Source of the DNA: Zoroaster sp. YZ-2022 | Taxonomy: Eukaryota > Echinodermata > Asteroidea > Forcipulatida > Zoroasteridae | NCBI GenBank assembly: GCA_029582265.1 | Contig: JAQQFT010000023.1 | Span: 62,001-126,000, forward strand | Direction: 5' to 3' | Length of the DNA stretch: 64,000 bases | Shown here: piece after piece, positions 18,001-41,029 of the stretch | Layout of the letters: every line of letters starts with the position of its first letter | Position numbering within the stretch: the first letter of the stretch is position 1 | Made by a program: the position numbers and the translations under genes | Notes under the pieces: generated by a model | Database searches by the model: none | Told to the model about the DNA's origin: nothing | What the model saw: only the letters and a program-made list of their open reading frames with translations

Positions 18001-21000
18001 GGGCCATAACTCAGGGTAGACAGCCCATATTGTTGTGATTAAAACACAAATACGAATGAAATTATTTCTAGCGACGGTTATAACTTTAAAAGTTTTTAAG
18101 GAGGCCGACAAATTTATATCCAAATTAAAGCTTAGGTTCACCTCTTTAGGAAATCACATGACTTTTACATTTAGATAATTTCTTCATACCTTAAAGGACC
18201 ACCATGCACACTTAGCCTCCGCAAAATACTGTCAAAATACGGGCCATAACTCAGGGTAGACAGCCTATATTGTTGTGATTAAAACACAAATACGAATGAA
18301 ATTATTTCTAGCGACGGTTATAACTTTAAAAGTTTTTATGAGGCCGACAAATTTATATCCAAATTAAAGCTTAGGTTCTCCTTGTTTTGTAAATCACATG
18401 ACTTTTTAATTTTGACAATTTCTTCATACCTTAAATGGCCTCCATGCACACTTAGCCCTCCGCAAAATACTGTCAAAATACGGGCCATAACTCAGGGTAG
18501 ACAGCCTATATTGTTGTGATTAAAACACAAATACGAATGAAATTATTTCTAGCGACGGTTATAACTTTAAAAGTTTTTAAGGAGGCCGACAAATTTATAT
18601 CCAAATTAAAGCTTAGGTTTCTCTTTAGGAAATCACATGACTTTTACATTTAGATAATTTCTTCATACCTTAAAAGGACCTCCATGCACACTTAGCCCTC
18701 CGCAAAATACTGTCAAAATACGGGCCATAACTCAGGGTAGACAGCCTATATTGTTGTGATTAAAACACAAATACGAATGAAATTATTTCTAGCGACGGTT
18801 ATAACATTATAATTTTAGATGTGAGGCCGACAAATTTATATCCAAATTAAAGCTTAGGTTCTCCTTTAGGAAATCACATGTCTTTAACATTTAGATAATT
18901 TCTTCATATCTTATCGGACCTCCATGCACACTTAGCCCTCCGCAAAATACTGTCAAAATACGGGCCATAACTCAGGGTAGACAGCCTATATTGTTGTGAT
19001 TAAAACACAAATACGAATGAAATTATTTCTAGCGACGGTTATAACTTTAAAAGTTTTTAAGGGAGGCCGACAAATTTATATCCAAATTAAAGCTTAGGTT
19101 CTCCTTTTTTAGGAAATCACATGACTTTTACATTTAGACAATTTCTTCATACCTTAAACGGACCACCATGCACACTTAGCCTCCGTAAAATACTGGTCAA
19201 AATACGGGCCATAACTCAGGGTAGACAGCCTATATTGTTGTGATTAAAACACAAATACGAATGAAATTATTTCTAGCGACGGTTATAACTTTAAAAGTTT
19301 TAAGGGAGGCCGACAAATTTATATCCAAATTAAAGCTTAGGTTCTCCTCTTTTAGGAAATCACATGACTTTTACATTTAGAAAAAATTTTCATACCTTAA
19401 TCGGCCTCCATGCACACTTAGCCCTCCGCAAAATACTGTCAAAATACGGGCCAAAACTCAGGGAACACAGCATATATGCTTGGGAATAAAAAACAAAATC
19501 GAATGAAATTATTTCTGGCGACCGTTATAACTTTAAAAGTTTTTAAGGAGGCCGACAAATTTATATCCAAATTAAAGCTTAGGTTCTCCTCTTTAGGAAA
19601 TCACATGACTTTTACATTTAGATAATTTCTTCATACCTTAAAGGACCACCATGCACACTTCTCCCTCCGCAAAATACTGTCAAAATACGGGCCATATCTC
19701 AGGGTAGACAGCCTATATTGTTGTGATTAAAACACAAATACGAATGAAATTATTTCTAGAGACGGTTATAACTTTAAAAGTCTTTAAGGGAGGCCGACAA
19801 ATTTATATCCAAATTAAAGCTTAGGTTCTCCTTTTAGGAAATCACATGACTTTTACATTTAGATAATTTCTTCATACCTTATGGCCTCCATGCACACTTA
19901 GCCCTCCGCAAAATACGGTCAAAATACGGGCCATAACTCAGGGTAGACAGCCTATATTGTTGTGATTAAAACACAAATACGAATGAAATAATTTCTAGCG
20001 ACTGTTATAACTTTAAAAGTTATAAAGGGAGTCCTACAAATTTATATCCAAATTAAAGCTTAGGTTCTCCTCTTTAGGAAATCACATGACTTTTACATTT
20101 AGACAATTTCTTCATACCTTAAACGGCCTCCATGCACACTTTCTAGCCCTCCGCAAAATACTGGTCAAAATACGGGCCATAACTCAGGGTAGACAGCCTA
20201 TATTGTTGTGATTAAAACACAAATACGAATGAAATTATTTCTAGCGACGGTTATAACTTTAAAAGTTTTAAGGAGGCTGACAAATTTATATCCAAATTAA
20301 AGCTTAGGTTCTCCTCTTTAGGAAATCACATGACTTTTACATTTAGATAATTTCTTCATACCTTAAATGGCCTCCATGCACACTTAGCCCCTCCGCAAAA
20401 TACTGTCAAAATACGGGCCATAACTCAGGGTAGACAGCCTATATTGTTGTGATTAAAACACAACATACGAATGAAATTATTTCTAGCGACGGTTATAACT
20501 TTAAAAGTTTTTAAGGAGGCTGACAAATTTATATCCAAATTAAAGCTTAGGTTCTCCTTTTTAGGAAATCACATGACTTTACATTTAGATAATTTCTTCA
20601 TACCTTAAAGGACCACCATGCACACTTAGCCCTCCGCAAAATACTGTCAAAATACGGGCCATAACTCAGGGTAGACAGCCTATATTGTTGTGATTAAAAC
20701 ACAAATACGAATGAAATTATTTCTAGCGACGGTTATAACTTTAAAAGTTTTTTAAGGGAGGCCGACAAATTTATATCCAAATTAAAGCTTAGGTTCTCCT
20801 CTTTAGGAAATCACATGACTTTTACATTTAGATAATTTCTTCATACCTTAATCGGCCTCCATGCACACTTAGCCCTCCGCAAAATACTGTCAAAATACGG
20901 GCCATAACTCAGGGTAGACAGCCTCATATTGTTGTGATTAAAAACACAAATGAATGAAATTATTTCTAGCGACGGTTATAACTTTAAAGTTTTTAAGAGG

Positions 21001-21640
21001 CCGACAAATTTATATCCAAATTAAAGCTTAGGTTCTCCTTTTTAGGAAATCACATGACTTTACATTTAGATAATTTCTTCATACCTTAATCGGCCTCCAT
21101 GCACACTCTAGCCCCTCCGCAAAATACTGTCAAAATACGGGCCATAACTCAGGGTAGACAGCCTATATTGTTGTGATTAAAACACAAATACGAATGAAAT
21201 TATTTCTAGCGACGGTTATAACTTTAAAAGTTTTTAAGGAGGCCGACAAATTTATATCCAAATTAAAGCTTAGGTTCTCCTTTTAGGAAATCACATGACT
21301 TTTACATTTAGATAATTTCTTCATACCTTAAATGGACCATGCACACTTAGCCCTCCGCAAAATACTGTCAAAATACGGGCCATAACTCAGGGTAGACAGC
21401 CCATATTGTTGTGATTAAAACACAAATACGAATGAAATTATTTCTAGCGACGGTTATAACTTTAAAAGTTTTTAAGGAGGCTGACAAATTTATATCCAAA
21501 TTAAAGCTTAGGTTCTCCTCTTTAGGAAATCACATGACTTTTTACATTTAGATAATTTCATACCTTAAAGGACCACCATGCACACTTAGCCCTCCGCAAA
21601 ATCCCGTAAAAATAATAACTCGGGGTAAAATAATTTTTAT
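1..21640 (+). repeat. Satellite array, left domain, ~243-bp monomers
   Basis: About 89 direct head-to-tail copies of an AT-rich monomer fill this stretch without any gene. The consensus length follows from spacing of the landmark GGCCGACAAATTTATATCC. Other landmarks in order are AAGCTTAGG (HindIII), TCACATGACTTTTACATTTAGA, a variable block around CCATGCACAC, GGGCCATAACTCAGGGTAGACAG, TTGTTGTGATTAAAACACAAA and AGCGACGGTTATAACTTTAAAAG. Two monomer kinds dominate: one reads CTTAAAGGACCACC, the other CTTAATCGGCCTCC, and both are usually followed by TTAGCCCTCCGC. From about 7.5 kb onward many copies lack single bases in homopolymers (CTCTTTAGG for CTCTTTTAGG, GTTTTAAGG for GTTTTTAAGGG). The last ~50 bases before the N run are badly corrupted. 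No RNA polymerase III boxes, CENP-B box or coding signal was recognised. Confidence 0.98.
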
Positions 21641-22140
21641 NNNNNNNNNNNNNNNNNNNNNNNNNNNNNNNNNNNNNNNNNNNNNNNNNNNNNNNNNNNN
21701 NNNNNNNNNNNNNNNNNNNNNNNNNNNNNNNNNNNNNNNNNNNNNNNNNNNNNNNNNNNNNNNNNNNNNNNNNNNNNNNNNNNNNNNNNNNNNNNNNNNN
21801 NNNNNNNNNNNNNNNNNNNNNNNNNNNNNNNNNNNNNNNNNNNNNNNNNNNNNNNNNNNNNNNNNNNNNNNNNNNNNNNNNNNNNNNNNNNNNNNNNNNN
21901 NNNNNNNNNNNNNNNNNNNNNNNNNNNNNNNNNNNNNNNNNNNNNNNNNNNNNNNNNNNNNNNNNNNNNNNNNNNNNNNNNNNNNNNNNNNNNNNNNNNN
22001 NNNNNNNNNNNNNNNNNNNNNNNNNNNNNNNNNNNNNNNNNNNNNNNNNNNNNNNNNNNNNNNNNNNNNNNNNNNNNNNNNNNNNNNNNNNNNNNNNNNN
22101 NNNNNNNNNNNNNNNNNNNNNNNNNNNNNNNNNNNNNNNN
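21641..22140. other. Assembly gap, exactly 500 N
   Basis: Five hundred N bases, a length typical of a placeholder gap of unknown true size. Satellite lies on both sides, but the flanks differ in monomer type and the base calls next to the gap are degraded on both edges (21600-21640 and 22141-22200). The missing sequence is probably more satellite, and the join may not be physically real. Confidence 0.99.
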
Positions 22141-22247
22141 CCCTCCGGGGTAGAAGCCTATTGTTGTGATTAAAACACAAATACGAATGAAATTAATTCC
22201 TAGCGACGGTTATAACTTTACAATTTTTTAGGGAGGCATACAAATTT

Positions 22248-24660
22248 ATATCCAAATTAAAGCTTAGGTTCTCCTCTTTTAGGAAATCACATGACTTTTA
22301 CATTTCGATAATTTCTTCATACCTTAAATGGCCTCCATGCACACTGAGCCCTCCGCAAAATACTGTCAAAATACGGGCCATAACTCAGGGTAGACAGCCT
22401 ATATTGTTGTGATTAAAACACAAATACGAATGAAATTATTTCTAGCGACGGTTATAACTTTAAAAGTTTTTAAGGGAGGCCGACAAATTTATATCCAAAT
22501 TAAAGCTTAGGTTCTCCTCTTTTAGGAAATCACATGACTTTTACATTTAGACAATTTCTTCATACCTTAAACGGCCTCCATGCACACTTAGCCCTAAGTA
22601 AAATACGGTCAAAATACGGGCCATAACTCAGGGTAGACAGCCTATATTGTTGTGATTAAAAGACAAATACGAATGAAATTATTTCTAGCGACGGTTATAA
22701 CTTTAACAGATTTTAAGGGAGGCCGACAAATTTATATCCAAATTAAAGCTTAGGTTCTCCTCTTTTAGGAAATCACATGACTTTTACATTTAGACAATTT
22801 CTTCATACCTTAAACGGCCTCCATGCACACTTAGCCCTCAGTAAAATACGGTCAAAATACGGACCATAACTCAGGGTAGACAGCCTATATTGTTGTGATT
22901 AAAACACAAATACGAATGAAATTATTCCTAGCGACGGTTATAACTTTAAAAGTTTTTAAGGGAGGCCGACAAATGTATATCCAAATTAAAGCTTAGGTTC
23001 TCCTCTTTTAGGAAATCACATGACTTTTACATTTCGATAATTTCTTCATACCTTAAATGGCCTCCATGCACACTGAGCCCTCCGCAAAATACTGTCAAAA
23101 TACGGGCCATAACTCAGGGTAGACAGCCTATATTGTTGTGATTAAAACACAAATACGAATGAAATTATTTCTAGCGACGGTTATAACTTTAAAGTTTTTA
23201 AGGGAGGCCGACAAATTTATATCCAAATTAAAGCTTAGGTTCTCCTCTTTTAGGAAATCACATGACTTTTACATTTAGACAATTTCTTCATACCTTAAAC
23301 GGCCTCCATGCACACTTAGCCCTCAGTAAAATACGGTCAAAATACGGGCCATAACTCAGGGTAGACAGCCTATATTGTTGTGATTAAAACACAAATACGA
23401 ATGAAATTATTCCTAGCGACGGTTATAACTTTAAAAGTTTTTAAGGGAGGCCGACAAATTTATATCCAAATTAAAGCTTAGGTTCTCCTCTTTTAGGAAA
23501 TCACATGACTTTTACATTTCGATAATTTCTTCATACCTTAAATGGCCTCCATGCACACTGAGCCCTCCGCAAAATACTGTCAAAATACGGGCCATAACTC
23601 AGGGTAGACAGCCTATATTGTTGTGATTAAAACACAAATACGAATGAAATTATTTCTAGCGACGGTTATAACTTTAAAAGTTTTAAGGGAGGCCGACAAA
23701 TTTATATCCAAATTAAAGCTTAGGTTCTCCTCTTTTAGGAAATCACATGACTTTTACATTTAGACAATTTCTTCATACCTTAAACGGCCTCCATGCACAC
23801 TTAGCCCTAAGTAAAATACGGTCAAAATACGGGCCATAACTCAGGGTAGACAGCCTATATTGTTGTGATTAAAAGACAAATACGAATGAAATTATTTCTA
23901 GCGACGGTTATAACTTTAAAAGTTTTTAAGGGAGGCCGACAAATTTATATCCAAATTAAAGCTTAGGTTCTCCTCTTTTAGGAAATCACATGACTTTTAC
24001 ATTTAGACAATTTCTTCATACCTTAAACGGCCTCCATGCACACTTAGCCCTCAGTAAAATACGGTCAAAATACGGGCCATAACTCAGGGTAGACAGCCTA
24101 TATTGTTGTGATTAAAACACAAATACGAATGAAATTATTCCTAGCGACGGTTATAACTTTAAAAGTTTTTAAGGGAGGCCGACAAATTTATATCCAAATT
24201 AAAGCTTAGGTTCTCCTCTTTTAGGAAATCACATGACTTTTACATTTCGATAATTTCTTCATACCTTAAATGGCCTCCATGCACACTGAGCCCTCCGCAA
24301 AATACTGTCAAAATACGGGCCATAACTCAGGGTAGACAGCCTATATTGTTGTGATTAAAACACAAATACGAATGAAATTATTTCTAGCGACGGTTATAAC
24401 TTTAAGTTTTTAAGGGAGGCCGACAAATTTATATCCAAATTAAAGCTTAGGTTCTCCTCTTTTAGGAAATCACATGACTTTTACATTTAGACAATTTCTT
24501 CATACCTTAAACGGCCTCCATGCACACTTAGCCCTCAGTAAAATACTGTCAAAATACGGGCCATAACTCAGGGTAGACAGCCTATATTGTTGTGATTAAA
24601 ACACAAATACGAATGAAATTATTTCTAGCGACGGTTATAACTTTAAAAGTTTTTAAGGGA
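22248..24660 (+). repeat. Two copies of a five-monomer higher-order repeat (~1213 bp)
   Basis: The order of monomer kinds A, B', B, A, B is repeated twice. The rare B' marker (CCCTAAGTAAAAT followed by TTAAAAGACAAAT) occurs at 22593 and again at 23806, 1213 bp apart, which is five monomers within a few single-base indels. Shared rare variants at matching positions indicate block duplication rather than independent mutation of single monomers. Confidence 0.8.
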
Positions 24661-25054
24661 GGCCGACAAATTTATATCCAAATTAAAGCTTAGGTTCTCC
24701 TCTTTTAGGAAATCACATGACTTTTATATTTAGACAATTTCTTCATACCTTAAACGGCCTCCATGCACACTTAGCCCTCAGTAAAATACGATCAAAATAC
24801 GGGCCATAACTCAGGGTAAACACCCGACATTGTTGTGATTAAAACACAAATACGAATGAAATTATTTCTAGCGACGGTTATAACTTTAAAAGTTTTTAAG
24901 GGAGGCCGACAAATTTATATCCAAATTAAAGCTTAGGTTCTCCTCTTTTAGGAAATCACATGACTTTTACATTTAGATAATTTCTTCATACCTTAAATGG
25001 CCTCCATGCACACTGAGCCCTCCGCAAAATACTGTCAAAATACGGGCCATAACT

Positions 25055-25058
25055 CAGG
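25055..25058 (+). repeat. Left copy of 4-bp target-site duplication CAGG
   Basis: CAGG directly precedes the left terminus and is repeated directly after the right terminus at 29363-29366. The intact satellite monomer reads AACTCAGGGTGGACAG at this place (seen at about 30817), so one CAGG is the original and the other is the duplication. Confidence 0.93.
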
Positions 25059-25072
25059 CACGGCTGTTTCAC
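25059..25072 (+). repeat. Left terminal inverted repeat, 14 bp
   Basis: CACGGCTGTTTCAC, the exact reverse complement of 29349-29362. Beyond these 14 bases the ends diverge (CGTTTT on this side, GCGTAT on the other strand of the right end). The CAC start is shared by Chapaev, CACTA and Transib/RAG-type elements. Confidence 0.97.
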
Positions 25073-25129
25073 CGTTTTAAAAGGCGCCCTCTTTCGGTTG
25101 ATATTAGTCAGCGAGCATAATGAAGTCTA

Positions 25130-25137
25130 TGACGTCA
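25130..25137. promoter_or_regulatory. Subterminal CRE-like palindrome TGACGTCA
   Basis: A consensus CRE octamer lies 71 bp inside the left end. An identical octamer lies 83 bp inside the right end (29272-29279). Each is followed inward by ATGCAT within about 25 bp (25140-25145 and 29297-29302; in the right end ATGCAT lies on the terminal side). The paired placement suggests a subterminal protein-binding or promoter site, but function is inferred only. Confidence 0.4.
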
Positions 25138-25299
25138 CCATGCATTTTATTTATAAACATTCCTTTTCGCGTCAACCGTTATGTAAAGTGGCCTTGTAAA
25201 AAGCGATAACCTGATTGGTTGATAGAAAGTTTTACATATGTAAATAGGTAAAATTATTTAAAAATATGTGACCTTCCGCCACCACCAAGCAGAAGTACG

Positions 25300-25490
25300 T
25301 TGGGGTCACGGAGTTAATGCGGGAGAAAGATACACGTGATGCATACAGCCCGCATTGTGTCTGGACTGCTCTACATGTCGACGGACGATCACCAGACATT
25401 TTGTCTCATTTCTCATAAACAAAAGCCACAACGGACCCTAAAAACATGTCATCATCTCACAAGATGATGTACTTCAGGAAAAATTAACAA
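25300..25490 (+). other. Putative 5' untranslated exon of left-end gene (start unknown)
   Basis: The sequence ends in AACAA followed by GTAAGTG at 25491, a strong splice-donor match. If joined to the exon at 26127, the frame of the downstream ATG meets a TAA at 25485-25487, so this exon would be untranslated leader. The 5' boundary given is arbitrary because no TATA box or initiator was recognised. Spliced-leader status rests on splice-site matches only. Confidence 0.3.
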
Positions 25491-26126
25491 GTAAGTGTAG
25501 GACATTTTGTTTTGGATGATTTAAAGCTATGAAAAGTTTGGCATTTTTTGTAAACATTTCAACACCGTTTATACGTTTCACGTGCTTTCGCCCCAGTACA
25601 ACTTCGCCCCTTAATTCCAATGAAGAATAAGATGCTACGGGGCGAGATTTGTGGGGGCGAACTGTACACATGTTAAAAACTGGAGATTTTAGCACATGTT
25701 TATTGACGTTGAAAGTCATGATTTTTATAGCTCTTGTTTGCTTCCATTCCCTAACGTACCACAACATTTGGCTTCAATCCCCTACCACATCATTTGGTTT
25801 TGGTAGGCCCTAATATTACCTGACAAAACAAGAGAGAGAAACAAACAAGCAGTACACAGCCCACACTGCCACAGATATTTCAAATATAATTTTTTTAAAG
25901 TTTTTTATAACTTTTTTATTTTTGTACATATGTATAAAATACTGCAGTATTATTAAAACGTATACAATAAGCGTGTTAACTTTACCTAATTGTTAGAATG
26001 CTCCCCCCCCCCTTATAAGTTGCAATTTGTGTTCGATGTATTCCAGAATGTCAAAACATTACACCACGAATTTAGAAATACTTGTTTTATAACTATAATT
26101 TGAATTTGCATTGGTTTATTTTGTAG
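25491..26126 (+). other. Putative intron in transposon left part
   Basis: Donor GTAAGTG at 25491 and acceptor TTTATTTTGTAG ending at 26126, preceded by a T-rich tract. It contains a short inverted repeat of GTACA-x-TTCGCCCC type (25596-25610 with 25653-25667), with extra GGGGCGA/TTCGCCCC copies beside it. It also contains an A/T-rich stretch at 25880-25980 and a C10 run at 26003-26012. The 97-codon minus-strand frame across 25474-25767 resembles no protein I recognise and is treated as chance. Confidence 0.35.
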
Positions 26127-26209
26127 GTTTCAACGAATTACAGGATGTTCAACTACTTGAGTGCTATTCATTCTTCAGATGACACAGTCTGTGTTGGTTT
26201 CGTAGAGCG
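26127..26209 (+). CDS. Putative first coding exon of plus-strand transposon gene (partial)
   Basis: Bounded by acceptor TTTTGTAG (ends 26126) and donor GCG|GTAAGTT (GT at 26210-26211). An ATG at 26145 opens a frame through the donor, giving MFNYLSAIHSSDDTVCVGFV then E-R, with two bases carried into the next exon. The frame is acidic and serine-rich in the middle and resembles nothing I can name. No downstream exon of this gene is recognisable; the region where it should lie is occupied by the foldback structure. It may be the remnant N-terminus of the element's transposase, which would make the element a convergent two-gene unit. This rests on splice signals and one short frame, so confidence is modest. 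Confidence 0.4.
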
Positions 26210-26367
26210 GTAAGTTTTGGTTGAAGTTATTGTATTTTAATTGAACAGCTCAACTTTGGGTTATTATTAGCCCCATAATTAGTGCCATTCTGCCAATATT
26301 CTAGACTCTGTCTGACCCTTGGCCCTATGCCGATAAAAAACGGTACAATTTTTGCTTAGTTAAATTA

Positions 26368-26917
26368 TGCCCACAATGTTTACTTATATGTTATGATGCT
26401 TGCCAGTAAAAAAGAAAATCGGTATTCCACTCACTTTTTTTGTTGAAATTTATAGAGAATAGCTACTGCTTTACCGACATCAGCTGCCATGATAAGTACT
26501 GATGCTCATGCGCACAGATACCACACTATGACCTCATGCGACCTGCATTTTTCGTTATTGATGGTCGCGCAACTGAAAACTTGACCCGTGATCATAAAAA
26601 AACTAAGTTTATAGTTAACGCTGAGGCATCTTTGATTAGTAGCCGAAGACGCTGGCGATCATCAGAGTTCGACGATCATCATCACGTCGCCACCAGACTA
26701 GACCGTGCACATACTACAAACGTATAAACACACACAGATAACTAACTACGCTGGGGCAAACTGACGTATCAGCGCACATGCGCATGGCGGCTGATGAGGT
26801 TTAAACGTGTTGGTAAAGTAGTAGCAATTCTCCACAAATTTTACCAAATCAATCAGGTGGAATGCCTTTTTTTGTACTGGCGAGCATCATAGAATAGGTA
26901 AGTAAACATTGTGGGCA
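26368..26917. repeat. Foldback structure with ~150-bp imperfect inverted arms
   Basis: The left arm begins TGCCCACAATGTTTACTTA (26368) and the right arm ends with its reverse complement (26907-26917 for the outer 11 bases). Matching continues inward through TATGATGCT-x-GCCAGTA, an A-rich tract, ATTCCAC, GAGAAT-x-GCTACT-x-CTTTACC and CATCAGC-x-GCCATG, to about 26517 on the left and 26762 on the right. The loop of about 240 bp contains GATCATC-rich sequence and no recognisable gene. No target duplication was found at its edges, so it may be an old nested MITE or an inverted duplication formed during internal deletion. The heptamer CACAATG equals the Transib/RSS-type heptamer. Confidence 0.7.
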
Positions 26918-27117
26918 AAAACACTCGGTATACAGCTTGTGCATAGCTGTGGAACTCCCAGTGCGAGTCCTGTATGGGGGACTTTATTTCTTCACGGGGG
27001 AATTTTGTGGAAACTTATGTACTGTTCCTGTGCAAATATTGCAAACTCTGTGGAACGCATGTAAAAATGAATATTGTGGAATTTGCAGGAAGACGATATT
27101 TTCATTTTGCTTATCCT
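26918..27117. other. Non-coding spacer with scattered TGTGGAA motifs
   Basis: Between the foldback and the RAG1-like pseudogene. TGTGGAA occurs at 26948, 27006, 27049 and 27075 with uneven spacing. TTGCAAA/GCAAATATTGC motifs lie between them. The 66-codon plus-strand frame here has no recognisable feature. A T10 tract followed by GCAG (27139-27152) resembles a plus-strand splice acceptor but leads into the antisense of the pseudogene. I see no gene. Confidence 0.5.
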
Positions 27118-28069
27118 TTATTTATTTTCTAATTTAAATTTTTTTTTTGCAGGCTTGATGACTTTTGACCGCACTTCTGGTGCGGTACTGATGTGATGCC
27201 GCCTCATTATGGACATCAGTCGCTCCAGGTCATCCCGCATACCATTGACGATTCTCCCTGTGCGGTTAAACTCAGTGTGAATCAGCTCACCACCCTGCTC
27301 ATTGAGTAAACCAATAATCGGGTTATTTGTCCAATGCCATCACATGCTGTACACACAACATTTAGATTGTCCAGTTGAACACTTAGCACTCTGGGACTTG
27401 AAGTGATGCTGCTATACTGTACATGTTGATTACATATTGGGCAGTTGATGTTTGGACTTAACGAATGCTTGAAACACTGTGTCAAACATTGCGCACAGAA
27501 GTTATGTTGGCACGGTGTCTGAACTGATGGCTTTCCCAGTATACATAGACAAATACTACAAATGAAGAGTGACTGTTCCCACTGATTTCAAAACTAATGG
27601 GATATTCCAGATGTTGCGCATCACTTAATTGATGAAATATATTGTCATCGCTCAGTGAAAAGGGCAAAGTTTGTGTACAAGCTATTGTTGATTTAGGCCT
27701 ACCAGCCTTTGGTTTAGACTGCGGTCCTCCTCTAGACTGTTGCGTAAAAAGTTCACACACGAACCAAGTTCCAGTTCTTGTATGCTTTGGTCAATTTTGT
27801 TGGATTCGCTGTTTATCTTTGAGGCTCTGAACAGTATAAAATCGTTCTCCAGATTTACAGTGTCTTAGTTTTCTTGAACATTTTTCACATATATTTCATG
27901 GATGCTGGTACGCTGAATCTTCCCATACACTTATACCGAAATTATTCAATAATTCTTTGCTATACTCACTGGTTTCCTTTGGAAGGTTACGAGAACCGTG
28001 AATTGTGATTCTGTTTGTACATACTGTACAGATTTTTCCTAGAGCTTGTTGATGGAATTTGAAACTCAT
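27118..28069 (-). pseudogene. Decayed RAG1 N-terminal-like zinc/RING protein of transposon
   Basis: The conceptual protein (about 317 codons) follows the non-catalytic N-terminal region of RAG1 in motif order. It begins at ATG 28069 (MSFKFHQQALGK), then ICTVC (Cys codons 28030 and 28021), about 40 residues, QHPxNICEKC (Cys at 27889 and 27880), PKHT, and a basic KPKAGRPKS segment. Next comes a C3HC4 RING (27560-27432): C-x2-C-x12-C-x-H-x2-C-x2-C-x14-C-x2-C. It ends with VVCTAC (27353, 27344) and a charged helical tail to TAA at 27118. The order, the CQHNFCAQC core and the extra Cys four residues after the sixth ligand match RAG1. Breaks: TGA at 27896-27898 (between P and N), TGA at 27791-27793 (before PKHT, where RAG1 has Trp), a frame change near 27560 just before the RING, and another between about 27335 and 27300. 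No RAG1 DDE core follows. RAG1 RING domains act as ubiquitin ligases; function here is lost or unknown. Reads toward the left end, convergent with the plus-strand exon. Confidence 0.8.
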
Positions 28070-28189
28070 AATGAATAAAATATGTGTAAATATCACTGAA
28101 ACTCATCTTTGTTCCTGTGCGTTTTTTATCACTGTACTCCCGTATAATCTACTGTGTAGAATATTTATGAAAGTTTTGTGTAAACTAGT

Positions 28190-28193
28190 GTAT
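28190..28193 (+). repeat. Left GTAT flank of palindromic MITE
   Basis: GTAT directly precedes the inverted-repeat unit and recurs at 28606-28609, consistent with a 4-bp target-site duplication. Confidence 0.65.
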
Positions 28194-28605
28194 GACATAA
28201 AACACAATAAAGGGGGCCACTTTCCTACCGTCACGTTAGCAGTTTTTCTAATGGTTGTATTTTTTTTTTTTATATCTGAAACCACCCAAAAAGAATTTCA
28301 ACATTTGAATAGACATGCATGCTTATCCTAAAGATAATTTGAGTTGATTATTACTATTATTTTTTTTAATTACCCTAAAATTTCCATCAACAAATGGACG
28401 GAAAAGTGCGGTAACTTTTTCCGTCCAATTTTTATGGAAATTTGAGGGAAAAAAAATAAATAAAATAATAAAATAATAAAATAAATCAACTCAAATTACT
28501 TCTAGTATAAGCCTGTTGAAACACTTTTTGGTCGGTTTCAGGTACTTAAAAAAAAACTGCTAACGTGACAGATGCAAAGTGGCCCCCTTTATTGTGTTTT
28601 ATGTC
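28194..28605. mobile_element. Near-palindromic MITE-like insertion, 412 bp
   Basis: The left arm starts GACATAAAACACAATAAA and GGGGGCCACTTT; the right arm ends in the exact reverse complement for its outermost 30 bases. Similarity continues inward through GTCACGTTAGCAGTTTTT, CTGAAAC, AAAAAG-x2-TTTCAAC and TAATTTGAGTTGATT to a central GGACGGAAAA/TTTTCCGTCC hairpin at 28396-28426. The unit is almost wholly palindromic, non-coding, and flanked by GTAT on both sides. The outer termini do not match a family I can name. It lies 125 bp upstream of the RAG1-like start codon, in what would be the promoter or leader of that gene. It is a nested insertion, so it came after the host transposon formed, though possibly before this copy entered the satellite. 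Confidence 0.85.
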
Positions 28606-29348
28606 GTATTTACATAGGTAAAACTTGTAGCTTTGCATGGTGAGGATGATAAGTAAGACTAATTGAAGTGACACCATGTCGAATCTCAATTGAGTAGTAA
28701 TTTACATAGTATTTACATAGCGCGCTGTTCTGACGTATTTCACCGGTGCCCACACAACACCGTACAAAATTATAGAGTTAATGGGATTACCAGCGAAGAA
28801 GTTACTGCGGCTGGGCCGTCTGCACGGAACGTTAGTAAACGATTTTAATGGAAGTTTTGTTAGGCCTCGGTTTTTACAAGTTTTCAACAACGGTATTGAA
28901 TACTTAAACGAAATGTCCTACATGAGATTAAACGTTTAAAAAGTGAACATAGTAGTTCGTTATTAATAATCCTTTTTGAAAAGTTAAAACTAGCCCCTGT
29001 TAAGTAAAAAGGGAGGTTTTTGGAACGTCGTTTGAATCTTTCGAACAACAAAAGACGATGTACGAATGTCGAATACGACGTAAAAATTGATTTTTTTCCC
29101 GGCTTTTAAATTTTTGTAAGCACCCACTAACCACAAGAGTATAATTTAATTATGATTCATCAGAAAAGTTTAATAGAACGTCTATTTATTTCGTGTGAAG
29201 GGTTAATTTAGCTGATATTTCGACCCTGTTTTCGTCAGCTCTGTGATCTGTGGGCGCAGCCATTATTGGCGTGACGTCATCCTTTTGACATGAATTATGC
29301 ATGAGTGGCTACGGTCTGGGAAAACTTCTTTACGCGCGTCACATACGC
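28606..29348. other. Right-end non-coding part of the transposon
   Basis: Unique sequence between the MITE and the right terminus. It would hold the promoter and leader of the minus-strand RAG1-like gene. CpG dinucleotides are relatively frequent at 28720-28870 and 29220-29350, unlike the AT-rich middle. The 62-codon minus-strand frame at 28702-28890 shows no known domain. Apart from the CRE-like octamer and ATGCAT near the terminus, I see no recognisable element. Confidence 0.5.
29272..29279. promoter_or_regulatory. Right subterminal CRE-like palindrome TGACGTCA
   Basis: Counterpart of the left-end octamer, 83 bp inside the right terminus, with ATGCAT at 29297-29302. It would sit upstream of the minus-strand gene. 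A transposase-binding or promoter role is possible but unproven. Confidence 0.4.
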
Positions 29349-29362
29349 GTGAAACAGCCGTG
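29349..29362 (-). repeat. Right terminal inverted repeat, 14 bp
   Basis: GTGAAACAGCCGTG, the exact reverse complement of the left terminus, directly followed by the CAGG duplication and then by the rest of the split satellite monomer (GTGGACAGCC). Confidence 0.97.
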
Positions 29363-29366
29363 CAGG
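29363..29366 (+). repeat. Right copy of target-site duplication CAGG
   Basis: Matches CAGG at 25055-25058; together with the empty site near 30817 it defines a 4-bp duplication. Confidence 0.93.
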
Positions 29367-30679
29367 GTGGACAGCCTATATTGTTGTGATTAAAACACAA
29401 ATACGAATGAAATTATTTCTAGCGACGGTTATAACTTTTAAAGTTTTTAAGGGAGGCCGACAAATTTATATCCAAATTAAAGCTTAGGATCTCCTCTTTT
29501 AGGAAATCACATGACTTTTACATTTAGAAAATTTCTTCATACCTTAAATAGCCTCCATGCACACAGAGCCCTCCGCAAAATACTGTGAAAATACGGGCCA
29601 TAACTCAGGGTAGACAGCCTATATTGTTGTGATTAAAACACAAATACGAATGAAATTATTTCTAGCGACGGTTATAACTTTAACAGTTTTTAAGGGAGGC
29701 CGACAAATTTATATCCAAATTAAAGCTTATGTTCTCCTCTTTTAGGAAATAACATGACTTTTACATTTAGACAATTTCTTCATACCTTAAACGGCCTCCA
29801 TGCACACTTAGCCCTCAGTAAAATACTGTCAAAATACGGGCCATAACTCAGGGTAGACAGCCTATATTGTTGTGATTAAAACACAAATACGAATGAAATT
29901 ATTTCTAGCGACGGTTATAACTTTAAAAGTTTTAAGGGAGGCCTACAAATTTATATCCAAATTAAAGCTAACGTTCTCCTCTTTTAGGAAATCACATGAC
30001 TTTTACATTTCGATAATTTCTTCATACCTTAAATGGCCTTCATGCACACTGAGCCCTCCGCAAAATACTGTCAAAATACGGGCCATAACTCAGGGTAGAC
30101 AGCCTATATTGTTGTGATTAAAACACAAATACGAATGAAATTATTTCTAGCGACGGTTATAACTTTAAAAGTTTTTAAGGGAGGCCGACAAATTTATATC
30201 CAAATTAAAGCTTATGTTCTCCTCTTTTAGTAAATCACATGACTTTTACATTTAGACAATTTCTTCATACCTTAAACGGCCTCCATGCACACTTAGCCCT
30301 CAGTAAAATACTGTCAAAATACGGGCCATAACTCAGGGTAGACAGCCTATATTGTTGTGATTAAAACACAAATACGAATGAAATTATTTCTAGCGACGGT
30401 TATAACTTTAAAAGTTTTTAAGGGAGGCCGACAAATTTATATCCAAATTAAAGCTTAGGTTCTCCTCTTTTAGGAAATCACATGACTTTTATATTTAGAC
30501 AATTTCTTCATACCTTAAACGGCCTCCATGCACACTTAGCCCTCAGTAAAATACGATCAAAATACGGGCCATAACTCAGGGTAAACACCCGACATTGTTG
30601 TGATTAAAACACAAATACGAATGAAATTATTTCTAGCGACGGTTATAACTTTAACAGTTTTTAAGGGAGGCCGACAAAT

Positions 30680-30920
30680 TTATATCCAAATTAAAGCTTA
30701 GGTTCTCCTCTTTTAGGAAATCACATGACTTTTACATTTAGATAATTTCTTCATACCTTAAATGGCCTCCATGCACACTGAGCCCTCCGCAAAATACTGT
30801 CAAAATACGGGCCATAACTCAGGGTGGACAGCCTATATTGTTGTGATTAAAACACAAATACGAATGAAATTATTTCTAGCGACGGTTATAACTTTAAAAG
30901 TTTTTAAGGGAGGCCGACAA
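30680..30920 (+). repeat. Uninterrupted block duplicate of the monomer hit by the transposon
   Basis: This type A monomer carries the rare GTGGACAG variant (at 30825), otherwise seen only directly after the right terminus. It is preceded by a B monomer with TTTATATTTAGAC, ATACGATC and AAACACCCGACATTG, and followed by a monomer with GGATCTCC, TAGAAAATTT, AATAGCC and CTGTGAAAATAC. The same three-monomer order flanks the transposon (24661-25058 plus 29367-29620). It therefore preserves the empty insertion site. Confidence 0.88.
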
Positions 30921-33900
30921 ATTTATATCCAAATTAAAGCTTAGGATCTCCTCTTTTAGGAAATCACATGACTTTTACATTTAGAAAATTTCTTCATACC
31001 TTAAATAGCCTCCATGCACACAGAGCCCTCCGCAAAATACTGTGAAAATACGGGCCATAACTCAGGGTAGACAGCCTATATTGTTGTGATTAAAACACAA
31101 ATACGAATGAAATTATTTCTAGCGACGGTTATAACTTTAAAAGTTTTTAAGGGAGGCCGACAAATTTATATCCAAATTAAAGCTTAGGTTCTCCTCTTTT
31201 AGGAAATCACATGACTTTTACATTTAGACAATTTCTTCATACCTTAAACGGCCTCCATGCACACTTAGCCCTCAGTAAAATACTGTCAAAATACGGGCCA
31301 TAACTCAGGGTAGACAGCCTATATTGTTGTGATTAAAACACAAATACGAATGAAATTATTTCTAGCGACGGTTATAACTTTAAAAGTTTTTAAGGGAGGC
31401 CGACAAATTTATATCCAAATTAAAGCTTAGGTTCTCCTCTTTTAGGAAATCACATGACTTTTACATTTAGATAATTTCTTCATACCTTAAATGGCCTCCA
31501 TGCACACAGAGCCCTCCGCAAAATACTGTCAAAATACGGGCCATAACTCAGGGTAGACAGCCTATATTGTTGTGATTAAAACACAAATACGAATGAAATT
31601 ATTTCTAGCGACGGTTATAACTTTAAAGTTTTTAAGAGGCCGACAAATTTATATCCAAATTAAAGCTTAGGTTCTCCTCTTTTAGGAAATCACATGACTT
31701 TTACATTTAGATAATTTCTTCATACCTTAAATGGCCTCCATGCACACTGAGCCCTCCGAAAAATACTGTCAAAATACGGGCCATAACTCAGGGTAGACAG
31801 CCTATATTGTTGTGATTAAAACACAAATACGAATGAAATTATTTCTAGCGACGGTTATAACTTTAAAAGTTTTTAAGGGAGGCCGACAAATTTATATCCA
31901 AATTAAAGCTTAGGTTCTCCTCTTTTAGGAAATCACATGACTTTTACATTTAGATAATTTCTTCATACCTTAAATGGCCTCCATGCACACTGAGCCCTCC
32001 GCAAAATACTGTCAAAATACGGGCCATAACTCAGGGTAGACAGCCTATATTGTTGTGATTAAAACACAAATACGAATGAAATTATTTCTAGCGACGGTTA
32101 TAACTTTAAAAGTTTTAAGGGAGGCCGACAAATTTATATCCAAATTAAAGCTTAGGTTCTCCTCTTTTAGGAAATCACATGACTTTTACATTTAGATAAT
32201 TTCTTCATACCTTAAATGGCCTCCATGCACACTTAGCCCTCCGTAAAATACTGTCAAAATACGGGCCATAACTCAGGGTAGACAGCCTATATTGTTGTGA
32301 TTAAAACACAAATACGAATGAAATTATTTCTAGCGACGGTTATAACTTTAAAAGTTTTTAAGGGAGGCCGACAAATTTATATCCAAATTAAAGCTTAGGT
32401 TCTCCTCTTTTAGGAAATCACATGACTTTTACATTTAGATAATTTCTTCATACCTTAAATGGCCTCCATGCACACTTAGCCCTCCGCAAAATACGGTCAA
32501 AATACGGGCCATAACTCAGGGTAGACAGCCTATATTGTTGTGATTAAAACACAAATACGAATGAAACTATTTCTAGCGACGGTTATAACTTTAAAAGTTT
32601 TTAAAGGAGGCCGACAAATTTATATCCAAATTAAAGCTTAGGTTCTCCTCTTTTAGGAAATCACATGACTTTTACATTTAGATAATTTCTTCATACCTTA
32701 AATGGCCTCCATGCACACTTAGCCCTCCGCAAAATACTGTCAAAATACGGGCCATAACTCAGGGTAGACAGCCTATATTGTTGTGATTAAAACACAAATA
32801 CGAATGAAATTATTTCTAGCGACGGTTATAACTTTAAAAGTTTTTAAGGGAGGCCGACAAATTTATATCCAAATTAAAGCTTAGGTTCTCCTCTTTTAGG
32901 AAATCACATGACTTTTACATTTAGATAATTTCTTCATACCTTAAATAGCCTCCATGCACAGCCCTCCGCAAAATACTGTCAAAATACGGGCCATAACTCA
33001 GGGTAGACAGCCTATATTGTTGTGATTAAAACACAAATACGAATGAAATTATTTCTAGCGACGGTTATAACTTTAAAAGTTTTTAAGGGAGGCCGACAAA
33101 TTTATATCCAAATTAAAGCTTAGGTTCTCCTCTTTTAGGAAATCACATGACTTTTACATTTAGATAATTTCTTCATACCTTAAATGGCCTCCATGCACAC
33201 TGAGCCCTCCGCAAAATACTGTCAAAATACGGGCCATAACTCAGGGTAGACAGCCTATATTGTTGTGATTAAAACACAAATACGAATGAAATTATTTCTA
33301 GCGACGGTTATAACTTTAAAAGTTTTTAAGGGAGGCCGACACATGTATATCCAAATTAAAGCTTAGGTTCTCCTCTTGTAGGAAATCACATGACTTTTAC
33401 ATTTAGATAATTTCTTCATACCTTAAATGGCCTCCATGCACACAGAGCCCTCCGCAAAATACTGTCAAAATACGGGCCATAACTCAGGGTAGACAGCCTA
33501 TATTGTTGTGATTAAAACACAAATACGAATGAAATTATTTCTAGCGACGGTTATAACTTTAAAAGTTTTAAGGGAGGCCGACAAATTTATATCCAAATTA
33601 AAGCTTAGGTTCTCCTCTTTTAGGAAATCACATGACTTTTACATTTAGACAATTTCTTCATACCTTAAACGGCCTCCATGCACACAAAGCCCTCAGTAAA
33701 ATACTGTCAAAATACGGGCCATAACTCAGGGTAGACAGCCTATATTGTTGTGATTAAAACACAAATACGAATGAAATTATTTCTAGCGACGGTTATAACT
33801 TTAAAAGTTTTTAAGGGAGGCCGACAAATTTATATCCAAATTAAAGCTTATGTTCTCCTCTTTTAGGAAGTCACATGACTTTTACATTTAGATAATTTCT

Positions 33901-36900
33901 TCATACCTTAATGGCCTCCATGCATACTGAGCCCTCCGCAAAATACTGTCAAAATACGGGCCATAACTCAAGGTAGACAGCCTATATTGTTGTGATTAAA
34001 ACACAAATACGAATGAAATTATTTCTGCCGACGGGTATAACTTTAAAAGTTTTAAGGGAGGCCGACAAATTTATATCCAAATTAAAGCTTAGGTTCTCCT
34101 CTTTTAGGAAATCACATGACTTTTACATTTAGATAATTTCTTCATACCTTAAATGGCCTCCATGCACACTTAGCCCTCCGCAAAATACTGTCAAAATACG
34201 GGCCATAACTCAGGGTAGACAGCCTATATTGTTGTGATTAAAACACAAATACGAATGAAACTATTTCTAGCGTCGGTTATAACTTTAAAATTTTTTAATG
34301 GAGGCCGAACAATTTATTAAAAAATTAAAGCTTAGGTTCTCCTCTTTTTTGATATCACATGACTTTTACATTTAGATAATTTCTTCATACCTTAAATGGC
34401 CTCCATGCACACTGAGCCCTCCGCAAAATACTGTCAAAATACGGGCCATAACTCAGGGTAGACAGCCTATATTGTTGTGATTAAAACACAAATACGAATG
34501 AAATTATTTCTAGCGACGGTTATAACTTTAAAAGTTTTTAAGGTAGGCCGACAAATTTATATCCAAATTAAAGCTTAGGTTCTCCTCTTTTAGGAAATCA
34601 CATGACTTTTACATTTAGATAATTTCTTCATACCTTAAATGGCCTCCATGCACACTTAGCCCTCCGCAAAATACTGTCAAAATACGGGCCATAACTCAGG
34701 GTAGACAGCCTATATTGTTGTGATTAAAACACAAATACGAATGAAATTATTTCTAGCGACGGTTATAACTTTAAAAGTTTTTAAGGGAGGCCGACAAATT
34801 TATATCCAAATTAAAGCTTAGGTTCTCCTCTTTAGGAAATCACATGACTTTTACATTTAGATAATTTCTTCATACCTTAAATGGCCTCCATGCACACTGA
34901 GCCCTCCGCAAAATACTGTCAAAATACGGGCCATAACTCAGGGTAGACAGCCTATATTGTTGTGATTAAAACACAAATACGAATGAAATTATTTCTAGCG
35001 ACGGTTATAACTTTAAAAGTTTTTAAGGGAGGCCGACAAATTTATATCCAAATTAAAGCTTAGGTTCTCCTCTTTTAGGAAATCACATGACTTTTACATT
35101 TAGATAATTTCTTCATACCTTAAATAGCCTCCATGCACACTGAACCCTCCGCAAAATACTATTAAAATACGGGCCATAACTCAGGGTAGACAGCCTATAT
35201 TGTTGTGATTAAAACACAAATACGAATGAAATTATTTCTAGCGACGGTTATAACTTTAAAAGTTTTTAAGGGAGGCCGACAAATTTATATCCAAATTAAA
35301 GCTTAGGTTCTCCTCTTTTAGGAAATCACATGACTTTTACATTTAGATAATTTCTTCATACCTTAAATGGCCTCCATGCACACAGAGCCCTCAAAATACT
35401 GTCAAAATACGGGCCATAACTCAGGGTAGACAGCCTATATTGTTGTGATTAAAACACAAATACGAATGAAATTATTTCTAGCGACGGTTATAACTTTAAA
35501 AGTTTTTAAAGGAGGCCGACAAATTTATATCCAAATTAAAGCTTAGGTTCTCCTCTTTTAGGAAATCACATGACTTTTACATTTAGATAATTTCTTCATA
35601 CCTTAAACGGCCTCCATGCACACTTAGCCCTCCGCAAAATACTGTCAAAATACGGGCCATAACTCAGGGTAGACAGCCTATATTGTTGTGATTAAAACAC
35701 AAATACGAATGAAATTATTTCTAGCGACGGTTATAACTTTAAAAGTTTTTAAGGAGGCCGACAAATTTATATCCAAATTAAAGCTTAGGTTCTCCTCTTT
35801 TAGGAAATCACATGACTTTTACATTTAGATAATTTCTTCATACCTTAAATGGCCTCCATGCACACTTAGCCCTCCGCAAAATACTGTCAAAATACGGGCC
35901 ATAACTCAGGGTAGACAGCCTATATTGTTGTGATTAAAACACAAATACGAATGAAATTATTTCTAGCGACGGTTATAACTTTAAAAGTTTTTAAGGGAGG
36001 CCGACAAATTTATATCCAATTTAAAGCTTAGGTTCTCCTCTTTTAGGAAATCACATGACTTTTACATTTAGATAATTTCTTCATACCTTAAATGGCCTCC
36101 ATGCACACTGAGCCCTCCGCAAAATACTGTCAAAATACGGGCCATAACTCAGGGTAGACAGCCTATATTGTTGTGATTAAAACACAAATACGAATGAAAT
36201 TATTTCTAGCGACGGTTATAACTTTAAAAATTTATATCCAAATTAAAGCTTAGGTTCTCCTCTTTTAGGAAATCACATGACTTTTACATTTAGATAATTT
36301 CTTCATACCTTAAATGGCCTCCATGCACACTGAGCCCTCCGCAAAATACTGTCAAAATACGGGCCATAACTCAGGGTAGACAGCCTATATTGTTGTGATT
36401 AAAACACAAATACGAATGAAATTATTTCTAGCGACGGTTATAACTTTAAAAGTTTTTAAGGGAGGCCGACAAATTTATATCCAAATTAAAGCTTAGGTTC
36501 TCCTCTTTTAGGAAATCACATGACTTTTACATTTAGATAATTTCTTCATACCTTAAATGGCCTCCATGCACACTGAGCCCTCCGCAAAATACTGTCAAAA
36601 TACGGGCCATAACTCAGGGTAGACAGCCTATATTGTTGTGATTAAAACACAAATACGAATGAAATTATTTCTAGCGACGGTTATAACTTTAAAAGTTTTT
36701 AAGGGAGGCCGACAAATTTATATCCAAATTAAAGCTTAGGATCTCCTCTTTTAGGAAATCACATGACTTTTACATTTAGATAATTTCTTCATACCTTAAA
36801 TGGCCTCCATGCACACAGAGCCCTCCGCAAAATACTGTCAAAATACGGGCCATAACTCAGGGTAGACAGCCTATATTGTTGTGATTAAAACACAAATACG

Positions 36901-39900
36901 AATGAAATTATTTCTAGCGTCGGTTATAACTTTAAAAGTTTTTAAGGAGGGCCGACAAATTTATATCCAAATTAAAGCTTAGGTTCTCCTCTTTTAGGAA
37001 ATCACATGACTTTTACATTTAGATAATTTCTTCATACCTTAAATGGCCTCCATGCACACTGAACCCTCCGCAAAATACTGTCAAAATACGGGCCATAACT
37101 CAGGGTAGACAGCCTATATTGTTGTGATTAAAACACAAATACGAATGAAATTATTTCTAGCGACGGTTATAACTTTAAAAGTTTTTAAGGGAGGCCGACA
37201 AATTTATATCAAATTAAAGCTTAGGATCTCTCCTCTTTTAGGAAATCACATGACTTTTACATTTAGATAATTTCTTCATACCTTAAATGGCCTCCATGCA
37301 CACTTAGCCCTCCGCAAAATACTGTCAAAATACGGGCCATAACTCAGTCTGGACAGCGTATTTTGTTGTGATTATATCACAAATCCGAGTGAAATTATTT
37401 CTAGCGACGGTTATAACTTTAAAAAAATTTAAGGGAGGCCGACAAATTTATATCCAAATTAAAGCTTAGGTTCTCCTCTTTTAGGAAATCACATGACTTT
37501 TACATTTAGATAATTTCTTCATACCTTAAATGGCCTCCATGCACACTTAGCCCTCCGCAAAATACTGTCAAAATACGGGCCATAACTCAGGGTAGACAGC
37601 CTATATTGTTGTGATTAAAACACAAATACGAATGAAATTATTTCTAGCGACGGTTATAACTTTAAAAGTTTTAAGGGAGGCCGACAAATTTATATCCAAA
37701 TTAAAGCTTAGGTTCTCCTCTTTTAGGAAATCACATGACTTTTACATTTAGATAATTTCTTCATACCTTAAATGGCCTCCATGCACACTGAGCCCTCCGC
37801 AAAATACTGTCAAAATACGGGCCATAACTCAGGGTAGACAGCCTATATTGTTGTGATTAAAACACAAATACGAATGAAATTATTTCTAGCGACGGTTATA
37901 ACTTTAAAAGTTTTTAAGGGAGGCCGACAAATTTATATCCAAATTAAAGCTTAGGATCTCCTCTTTTAGGAAATCACATGACTTTTACATTTAGATAATT
38001 TCTTCATACCTTAAATGGCCTCCATGCACACTGAGCCCTCCGCAAAATACTGTCAAAATACGGGCCATAACTCAGGGTAGACAGCCTATATTGTTGTGAT
38101 TAAAACACAAATACGAATGAAATTATTTCTAGCGACGGTTATAACTTTAAAAGTTTTTAAGGAGGCCGACAAATTTATATCCAAATTAAAGCTTAGGTTC
38201 TCCTCTTTTAGGAAATCACATGACTTTTACATTTAGATAATTTCTTCATACCTTAAATGGCCTCCATGCACACTGAGCCCTCCGCAAAATACTGTCAAAA
38301 TACGGGCCATAACTCAGGGTAGACAGCCTATATTGTTGTGATTAAAACACAAATAAGAATGAAATTATTTCTAGCGACGGTTATAACTTTAAAAGTTTTT
38401 AAGGGAGGCCGACAAATTTATATCCAAATTAAAGCTTAGGTTCTCCTCTTTTAGGAAATCACATGACTTTTACATTTAGATAATTTCTTCATACCTTAAA
38501 TGGCCTCCATGCACACTGAGCCCTCCGCAAAATACTGTCAAAATACGGGCCATAACTCAGGGTAGACAGCCTATATTGTTGTGATTAAAACACAAATACG
38601 AATGAAATTATTTCTAGCGACGGTTATAACTTTAAAAGTTTTTAAGGGAGGCCGACAAATTTATATCCAAATTAAAGCTTAGGATCTCCTCTTTTAGGAA
38701 ATCACATGACTTTTACATTTAGAAAATTTCTTCATACCTTAAATGGCCTCCATGCACACAGAGCCCTCCGCAAAATACTGTGAAAATACGGGCCATAACT
38801 CAGGGTAGACAGCCTATATTGTTGTGATTAAAACACAAATACGAATGAAATTATTTCTAGCGACGGTTATAACTTTAAAAGTTTTTAAGGGAGGCCGACA
38901 AATTTATATCCAAATTAAAGCTTAGGTTCTCCTCTTTTAGGAAATCACATGACTTTTACATTTAGATAATTTCTTCATACCTTAAACGGCCTCCATGCAC
39001 ACTTAGCCCTCAGTAAAATACGGTCAAAATACGGGCCATAACTCAGGGTAGACAGCCTATATTGTTGTGATTAAAACACAAATACGAATGAAATTATTTC
39101 TAGCGACGGTTATAACTTTAAAAGTTTTTAAGGGAGGCCGACAAATTTATATCCAAATTAAAGCTTAGGTTCTCCTCTTTTAGGAAATCACATGACTTTT
39201 ACATTTAGATAATTTCTTCATACCTTAAATGGCCTCCATGCACACTGAGCCCTCGACAAAATACTGTCAAAATACGGGCCATAACTCAGGGTAGACAGCC
39301 TATATTGTTGTGATTAAAACACAAATACGAATGAAATTATTTCTAGCGACGGTTATAACTTTAAAAGTTTTTAAGGGAGGCCGACAAATTTATATCCAAA
39401 TTAAAGCTTAGGTTCTCCTCTTTTAGGAAATCACATGACTTTTACATTTAGACAATTTCTTCATACCTTAAACGGCCTCCATGCACACTTAGCCCTCAGT
39501 AAAATACGGTCAAAATACGGGCCATAACTCAGGGTAAACACCCGACATTGTTGTGATTAAAACACAAATACGAATGAAATTATTTCTAGCGACGGTTATA
39601 ACTTTAAAAGTTTTTAAGGGAGGCCGACAAATTTATATCCAAATTAAAGCTTAGGTTCTCCTCTTTTAGGAAATCACATGACTTTTACATTTAGATAATT
39701 TCTTCATACCTTAAATGGCCTCCATGCACACTGAGCCCTCCGCAAAATACTGTCAAAATACGGGCCATAACTCAGGGTAGACAGCCTATATTGTTGTGAT
39801 TAAAACACAAATACGAATGAAATTATTTCTAGCGACGGTTATAACTTTAAAAGTTTTTAAGGGAGGCCGACAAATTTATATCCAAATTAAAGCTTAGGAT

Positions 39901-41029
39901 CTCCTCTTTTAGGAAATCACATGACTTTTACATTTAGATAATTTCTTCATACCTTAAATGGCCTCCATGCACACAGAGCCCTCCGCAAAATACTGTCAAA
40001 ATACGGGCCATAACTCAGGGTAGACAGCCTATATTGTTGTGATTAAAACACAAATACGAATGAAATTATTTCTAGCGACGGTTATAACTTTAAAAGTTTT
40101 TAAGGGAGGCCGACAAATTTATATCCAAATTAAAGCTTAGGTTCTCCTCTTTTAGGAAATCACATGACTTTTACATTTAGACAATTTCTTCATACCTTAA
40201 ACGGCCTCCATGCACACTTAGCCCTCAGTAAAATACGGTCAAAATACGGGCCATAACTCAGGGTAGACAGCCTATATTGTTGTGATTAAAACACAAATAC
40301 GAATGAAATTATTTCTAGCGACGGTTATAACTTTAAAAGTTTTTAAGGGAGGCCGACAAATTTATATCCAAATTAAAGCTTAGGTTCTCCTCTTTTAGGA
40401 AATCACATGACTTTTACATTTAGATAATTTCTTCATACCTTAAATGGCCTCCATGCACACTGAGCCCTCCGCAAAATACTGTCAAAATACGGGCCATAAC
40501 TCAGGGTAGACAGCCTATATTGTTGTGATTAAAACACAAATACGAATGAAATTATTTCTAGCGACGGTTATAACTTTAAAAGTTTTTAAGGGAGGCCGAC
40601 AAATTTATATCCAAATTAAAGCTTAGGTTCTCCTCTTTAGGAAATCACATGACTTTTACATTTAGTACATTTCTTCATACCTTAAATGGCCTCCATGCAC
40701 ACTTAGCCCTCCGCAAAATACTGTCAAAATACGGGCCATAACTCAGGGTAGACAGCCTATATTGTTGTGATTAAAACACAAATACGAATGAAATTATTTC
40801 TAGCGACGGTTATAACTTTAAAAGTTTTTAAGGGAGGCCGACAAATTTATATCCAAATTAAAGCTTAGGTTCTCCTCTTTTAGGAAATCACATGACTTTT
40901 ACATTTAGATAATTTCTTCATACCTTAAATGGCCTCCATGCACACAGAGCCCTCCGCAAAATACTGTCAAAATACGGGCCATAACTCAGGGTAGACAGCC
41001 TATATTGTTGTGATTAAAACACAAATACG

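Follow-up and report, generated by a model that had tools for sequence, protein, structure and literature searches.

We found that the window, the whole 64,000-nucleotide stretch of Zoroaster sp. YZ-2022 DNA analysed here, very probably holds a Chapaev-type, predicted cut-and-paste transposon whose predicted core was lost in one deletion that joined a RAG1-like exon to the likely last exon of the transposase gene. Elsewhere in this genome, uninterrupted copies have the RAG1-like module and the core one after the other, which makes it likely that the module belongs to an ordinary transposase and is not a transposon of its own. Two sets of sequences served for comparison. The gene region was found at 94-100% identity at no fewer than 40 places in the 1.0-Gb host genome, the window included, which is a lower bound since 40 of 201 candidates were scored; 39 loci besides the window were fetched, with L048, L049 and L050 as longer versions of L045-L047. 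Among proteins, the main reference was P0008, an uncharacterised Asterias amurensis protein of 1,025 aa with a RING and a DUF1280 domain (the latter at 2e-22). The features of the window are as follows, with the strand given where a feature has one.

1..25058, satellite array left of the element, 243-bp unit with a 486-bp higher-order period (Tandem Repeats Finder)
25055..25058, target-site duplication CAGG, left (sequence reading)
25059..29362, minus strand, whole element, a predicted core-deleted Chapaev-type transposon, likely non-autonomous, 4,304 bp (perfect terminal inverted repeats and target-site duplication; ends as in other copies)
25059..25072, terminal inverted repeat, 14 bp, CACGGCTGTTTCAC (sequence reading)
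26140..26999, block with a second inverted-repeat pair, 26365-26386 / 26899-26920 (blastn: missing in L048, found in L049 and L050)
27118..28069, minus strand, remnant of the transposase gene, in which a deletion has joined the first exon (Chapa-like zinc region and RING) to the C-terminal exon (tblastn of P0008)
27118..27315, minus strand, C-terminal, likely last, exon of a DUF1280 transposase with an EQGGE motif (76% identity to P0008 residues 965-1022)
27312..27314, minus strand, internal-deletion junction with 3-bp TTG microhomology, about 3.3-3.5 kb missing (blastn against L048, L049 and L050; printed breakpoints)
27342..27353, minus strand, CxxC behind the RING (translation; first cysteine aligned to RAG1 in the PDB search)
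27432..27560, minus strand, C3HC4 RING finger (Pfam RING models; best PDB match RAG1)
27791..27793, minus strand, second TGA stop, common to a subgroup (28 TGA against 12 TGG in 40 aligned copies including the window)
27878..27904, minus strand, HP-x3-C-x2-C motif, which holds the shared TGA stop at 27898-27896 (translation and copy alignment)
28019..28030, minus strand, first CxxC of the Chapa/RAG1-N zinc region (translation)
28194..28710, nested palindromic insert, MITE-like, 517 bp (inverted repeats I1-I4; gap in blastn)
29349..29362, terminal inverted repeat, 14 bp, GTGAAACAGCCGTG (sequence reading)
29363..29366, target-site duplication CAGG, right (sequence reading)
29363..63634, satellite array right of the element (Tandem Repeats Finder, row 7597-63634)

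The terminal inverted repeats are perfect and of the CAC...GTG type, and AACTCAGGGTAGAC is the sequence at the insertion place in all three uninserted satellite units printed for comparison. The element breaks the 243-bp satellite at 25059-29362, which bears out an initial annotation that had placed it inside a satellite array. Almost throughout, positions 1-63634 of the window form one 243/486-bp array, and runs of N occupy 21641-22140 and 63635-64000. The same satellite also borders L025 and L033, and thus at least two other family copies (78-97% matches); because the ends of these copies abut it too, the satellite is a repeated landing place for the family. Within the element, the block at 26140-26999 either came in as a nested mobile element or was deleted from L048. 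A plus-strand exon proposed by eye at about 26128-26211 was dropped, as it lies mostly inside this block.

Translation of the minus strand from the ATG at 28069 gave, in order and across three frames, CxxC, HP-x3-C-x2-C, GRPK, a C3HC4 RING and CxxC, so the zinc and RING layout annotated at 27118..28069 is present. The layout is far beyond chance, since the pieces of the module show 82-92% identity to P0001 and 46-76% to P0008. The window reading contains two in-frame TGA stops, at 27898-27896 (inside HPxxxC) and at 27793-27791. A loss of 10 nt near 27589 causes the first frame change and occurs in the window and, of the 39 fetched copies besides it, in L030 alone; the second frame change is the junction of the large internal deletion and not small-scale decay. 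The further CxxC reads CFVC in uninterrupted copies, where the window has tryptophan in place of the first cysteine. At this codon, 35 of the 40 copies aligned, the window included, have TGG and 5 have TGT, including all 3 uninterrupted ones.

Profile searches of the PDB related this module to RAG1. One profile was built from eleven module sequences, of which this genome supplied one, and it produced a single co-linear match over mouse RAG1 residues 101-376 (2.6e-24, 89 bits). The best non-RAG1 protein was an RNF4 chain, at 62 bits over two matched stretches, so RAG1 scored higher than any TRIM/RNF chain listed. The same profile matched 21wb, a RAG1 fragment that is 137 residues long and lies upstream of the RING, at 2.3e-13. 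With a profile of the upstream zinc region built from six of the window's closer relatives, including one of this genome, 21wb ranked first at 1.3e-5, full-length RAG1 chains reached only 0.09-0.1, the first non-RAG1 match stood at 0.11, and no TRIM/RNF protein occurred among the 12 matches listed. A single upstream-region sequence reached only 0.26, with RAG1 as the sole match.

The joined reading of the window matched zebrafish RAG1 first (5e-8) and TRIM31 next (9.7e-7), and an uninterrupted copy gave 6.1e-7 for RAG1 and 1.7e-6 for TRIM31. Because the TRIM31 E-values are close behind, the slight lead of RAG1 on the RING alone decides little. Pfam RAG1_imp_bd scored above its cut-off in 4 of the 9 relatives scanned (P0017, P0018, P0022 and P0025), and the window family did not reach the cut-off. 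As judged by profile alignment, the relationship of the module to the N-terminal third of RAG1 is real when the RING and the upstream zinc region are taken together, and the annotated RAG1 likeness, including that of the HPxxxC-x2-C region, was upheld.

The annotation had further described a RAG1 N-terminal-like gene without a catalytic core. The core is indeed missing from the window copy, but a natural lack of it in the transposon is not supported, as uninterrupted copies carry both module and core. By tblastn, residues 1-171, 172-266 and 965-1022 of P0008 are present in the window, where residues 267-964 had one chance-level match only (E 7.7), away from the gene; across the 29 proteins compared, the best match of the window to any part of the missing core had an E-value of 1.0. 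Protein matching to P0008 likewise covered residues 3-263 and 965-1022 and left out the core between them. Behind the junction, window positions 27315-27142 code for the C-terminus of a DUF1280 transposase. We infer that 27118..27315 is likely the last exon of the transposase gene, and its EQGGE motif likely holds the catalytic glutamate. Comparison with uninterrupted copies placed the breakpoints where ...ATTATTG is joined to GTTTACTC..., with a 3-bp TTG overlap, and blastn against L048-L050 put the length removed at about 3.27-3.54 kb. On this sequence evidence, the window copy is a secondary product, its predicted core lost through one internal deletion.

Three of the 39 fetched copies, L048-L050, lack the deletion and show exon 1 followed by core segments in order through P0008 residue 1012-1022, with LH and parts of the Chapaev core motifs. 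L048 has both terminal repeats and measures 6,467 bp; its flanking 4-mers are unlike (GCGA/GCCA), which counts against the preferred explanation. L048 and L049 have an open exon 1, and that of L050 contains a stop. A protein search in which 45 of 2,264 candidates were scored detected further Chapaev subfamilies in the genome, and three additional loci were fetched. L051 and L052, from the same other subfamily, carry the module and then the core in order. In the third, L053 (1-5101), from another subfamily than the window copy, P0008 residues 348-805 are missing through a different internal deletion that spared the Chapa-RING exon. Core-deleted derivatives thus arose at least twice, in the window family and in L053, and the keeping of exon 1 in such derivatives may be recurrent. 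The exon 1 frames of L048, L049, L051 and L052 end in GGR then VS, which fits a GTAAGT-type splice donor, so a single exon may encode the entire RAG1-like module in two subfamilies.

Published descriptions of Chapaev transposons, as given in the accessible portion of PMC4079192, list CAC...GTG ends, target-site duplications of 3-4 bp, and a DDE core marked by C(2)C, LH and H(4)H motifs. The element has 5'-CAC and GTG-3' terminal inverted repeats, and the duplications fall in the published size range, with an exact 4-bp duplication at 19 of the 24 copies that have both terminal repeats perfect (window included) and none exact at the other 5, which count against the preferred explanation. The DDE-core motifs occur in full-length relatives, and the window copy keeps only the C-terminal segment. 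Rough motif patterns were found in the 25 core-bearing proteins for the first D in 24, the second D in 19, C2C in 17, H4H in 22 and E in 15. DUF1280, which the available text of PMC3985635 equates with the Chapaev transposase core and places in the same clade as RAG1, is present in P0005, P0007 and P0008, among others. At the sequence level, a core profile retrieved neither RAG1 nor Transib chains from the PDB, so the predicted DDE identity of the DUF1280 core rests on these motifs and on PMC3985635.

Kapitonov and Koonin 2015 (PMC4411706, seen in part) described two Chapaev subgroups in which, as in RAG1, a RING comes after a Chapa domain, and Chapa is there called part of the RAG1 N-terminus. 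The same order of Chapa zinc region and RING is found here, judged by co-linearity with the RAG1 N-terminus (alignment A5). Because the element has the published hallmarks and Chapa-RING Chapaevs are already described in that source, it belongs to a new family of these known transposons. Protein searches placed sea-star proteins among the nearest named relatives, and a scan of viral contigs detected no relative of the element.

Besides the window, 34 of the 39 fetched copies carry the junction with at most 2 mismatches, and 3 have the uninterrupted arm. The remaining two, L025 and L040, are altered in sequence at the junction, which counts against the preferred explanation. A TGA inside HPxxxC occurs in 36 of 37 deletion copies including the window (the exception, L030, has a gap of 1 nt at this place), and the site is TCA in all 3 uninterrupted copies. 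Variable module sites in the 37 deletion copies numbered 34, 41 and 36 at codon positions 1, 2 and 3, as expected without selection. The 19 exact 4-bp duplications differ as printed, with CAGG and CCTG being the same duplex. The 517-bp palindromic insert at 28194-28710 occurs in 33 of the 36 deletion copies that were fetched and is missing from all 3 uninterrupted copies, so it marks order within the deletion family; the deletion copies that lack it are L015, L042 and L044, the last two of which end before its place. Together, the shared TGA, the even codon-position variation and the 4-bp duplications suggest that the founder of the family had most likely already lost its reading frame and was moved by an outside enzyme. 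The junction in 34 of 39 copies and the stop common to 36 of 37 also indicate that the deletion element likely spread as a passenger.

These observations fit a model in which one internal deletion would have removed the core and fused the zinc-and-RING first exon to the likely last exon. The resulting dead copies would be mobilised in trans by the transposase of full-length copies with the same terminal repeats, and the RAG1-like exon would persist in the deletion family as a passenger without protein function. In intact Chapaevs, as in RAG1, the module would form the front end of the transposase and act through zinc binding and its RING, the latter possibly as a ubiquitin ligase.

We weighed this model against four other readings. 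Truncated P-element proteins repress transposition, and the core-less product might likewise be made as a trans-acting repressor. An open exon 1 in L048 and L049 and the repeated origin of core-deleted derivatives would be compatible with such a regulator, which is nonetheless highly improbable given the stop in the upstream zinc region of nearly all deletion copies and the about equal variability of codon positions. A separate "N-RAG" transposon, naturally encoding only a RAG1 N-terminal-like protein, would account for the many copies that combine the module with the core-deletion junction, and such an element has been described for Aplysia (PMC8355894, seen in part). This reading, the least improbable of the four, is still very unlikely: a DUF1280 transposase C-terminus is fused behind the RING at the deletion junction, the same genome holds uninterrupted copies, and the reading frame was apparently broken by the time the family spread.

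The two readings that concern the source of the module appear the least credible, to an equal degree. RAG1 as its best solved-structure relative would suit a fragment of a RAG1-like (Transib/RAGL) transposon, for which the available text of PMC7204232 gives 5-bp target-site duplications. No exact 5-bp duplication was found at any of the 24 copies with both terminal repeats perfect, where duplications are of 4 bp, and the C-terminal exon that was kept, like the core of full-length copies, is of the DUF1280 rather than the Transib type. Membership of that group was therefore rejected, and the annotation of a non-RAG DNA transposon was retained. Capture of a fragment of a host TRIM/RNF RING gene by the transposon would be consistent with the matches to generic RING models and with the nearness of TRIM31 to RAG1 on the RING alone. 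Against capture, the upstream zinc region matches RAG1 first, with TRIM/RNF proteins missing from its listed matches, and the same exon begins the transposase gene in full-length relatives.

The preferred reading, a core-deleted Chapaev, bears on two accounts of how the RAG1 N-terminus arose. In one, it derives from N-RAG-TP, a transposable element in its own right (PMC8355894, in the part available); in the other, Chapaev-like transposases already combined Chapa, RING and core (PMC4411706, likewise in part). The initial annotation had taken the window as support for a separate transposon origin, a reading that is not supported given the DUF1280 C-terminus fused at the junction and the occurrence of module and core together in L048-L052. 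A profile search aimed at RAG1 and Aplysia proteins (7,996 candidates scored) returned 31 proteins, of which 22 contained DUF1280, one was a fungal RING protein, and none was named as RAG1 or as from Aplysia. Aplysia-named proteins were also absent from the matches listed in the protein searches. In the literature as searched, which took in few subscription papers, we saw none that accounts for N-RAG-TP by core deletion from a Chapaev.

We regard it as quite possible, though falling just short of an even chance, that all "N-RAG" transposons, including Aplysia N-RAG-TP, are core-deleted Chapaevs and that the RAG1 N-terminus was taken or inherited from a complete Chapaev-type transposase. If so, the first exon of the transposase would be a self-contained, easily reshuffled module. 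This genome shows a core-less element arising from a complete one, with deleted and uninterrupted copies side by side and breakpoints that can be read, and therefore the evidence for a separate transposon needs re-checking. Exon 1 is likewise kept in L053, whose core deletion is a different one.

Compared with known systems, the window copy has the domain order of P0008 and is 51% identical to it in the module and 76% in the C-terminal segment, but lacks about 700 intervening residues. It shares with the N-terminal region of RAG1 (mouse PDB 6oem; fragment 21wb) a co-linear zinc region, RING and subsequent cysteines, whereas the RAG1 core is Transib-derived according to the available part of PMC4411706 and the core of the window's family is DUF1280. 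N-RAG-TP of Aplysia is described in the accessible text of PMC8355894 as a transposable element made up of RAG1 N-terminal-like sequence, and in this description lies its likeness to the window copy. The Chapa and RING Chapaevs of PMC4411706, to which the family was likened by the published description in the part available, share with it CAC...GTG termini, 4-bp duplications and, in full-length relatives, a zinc region, RING and DUF1280-type core; the window family differs in having lost that core by deletion and in sharing a stop.
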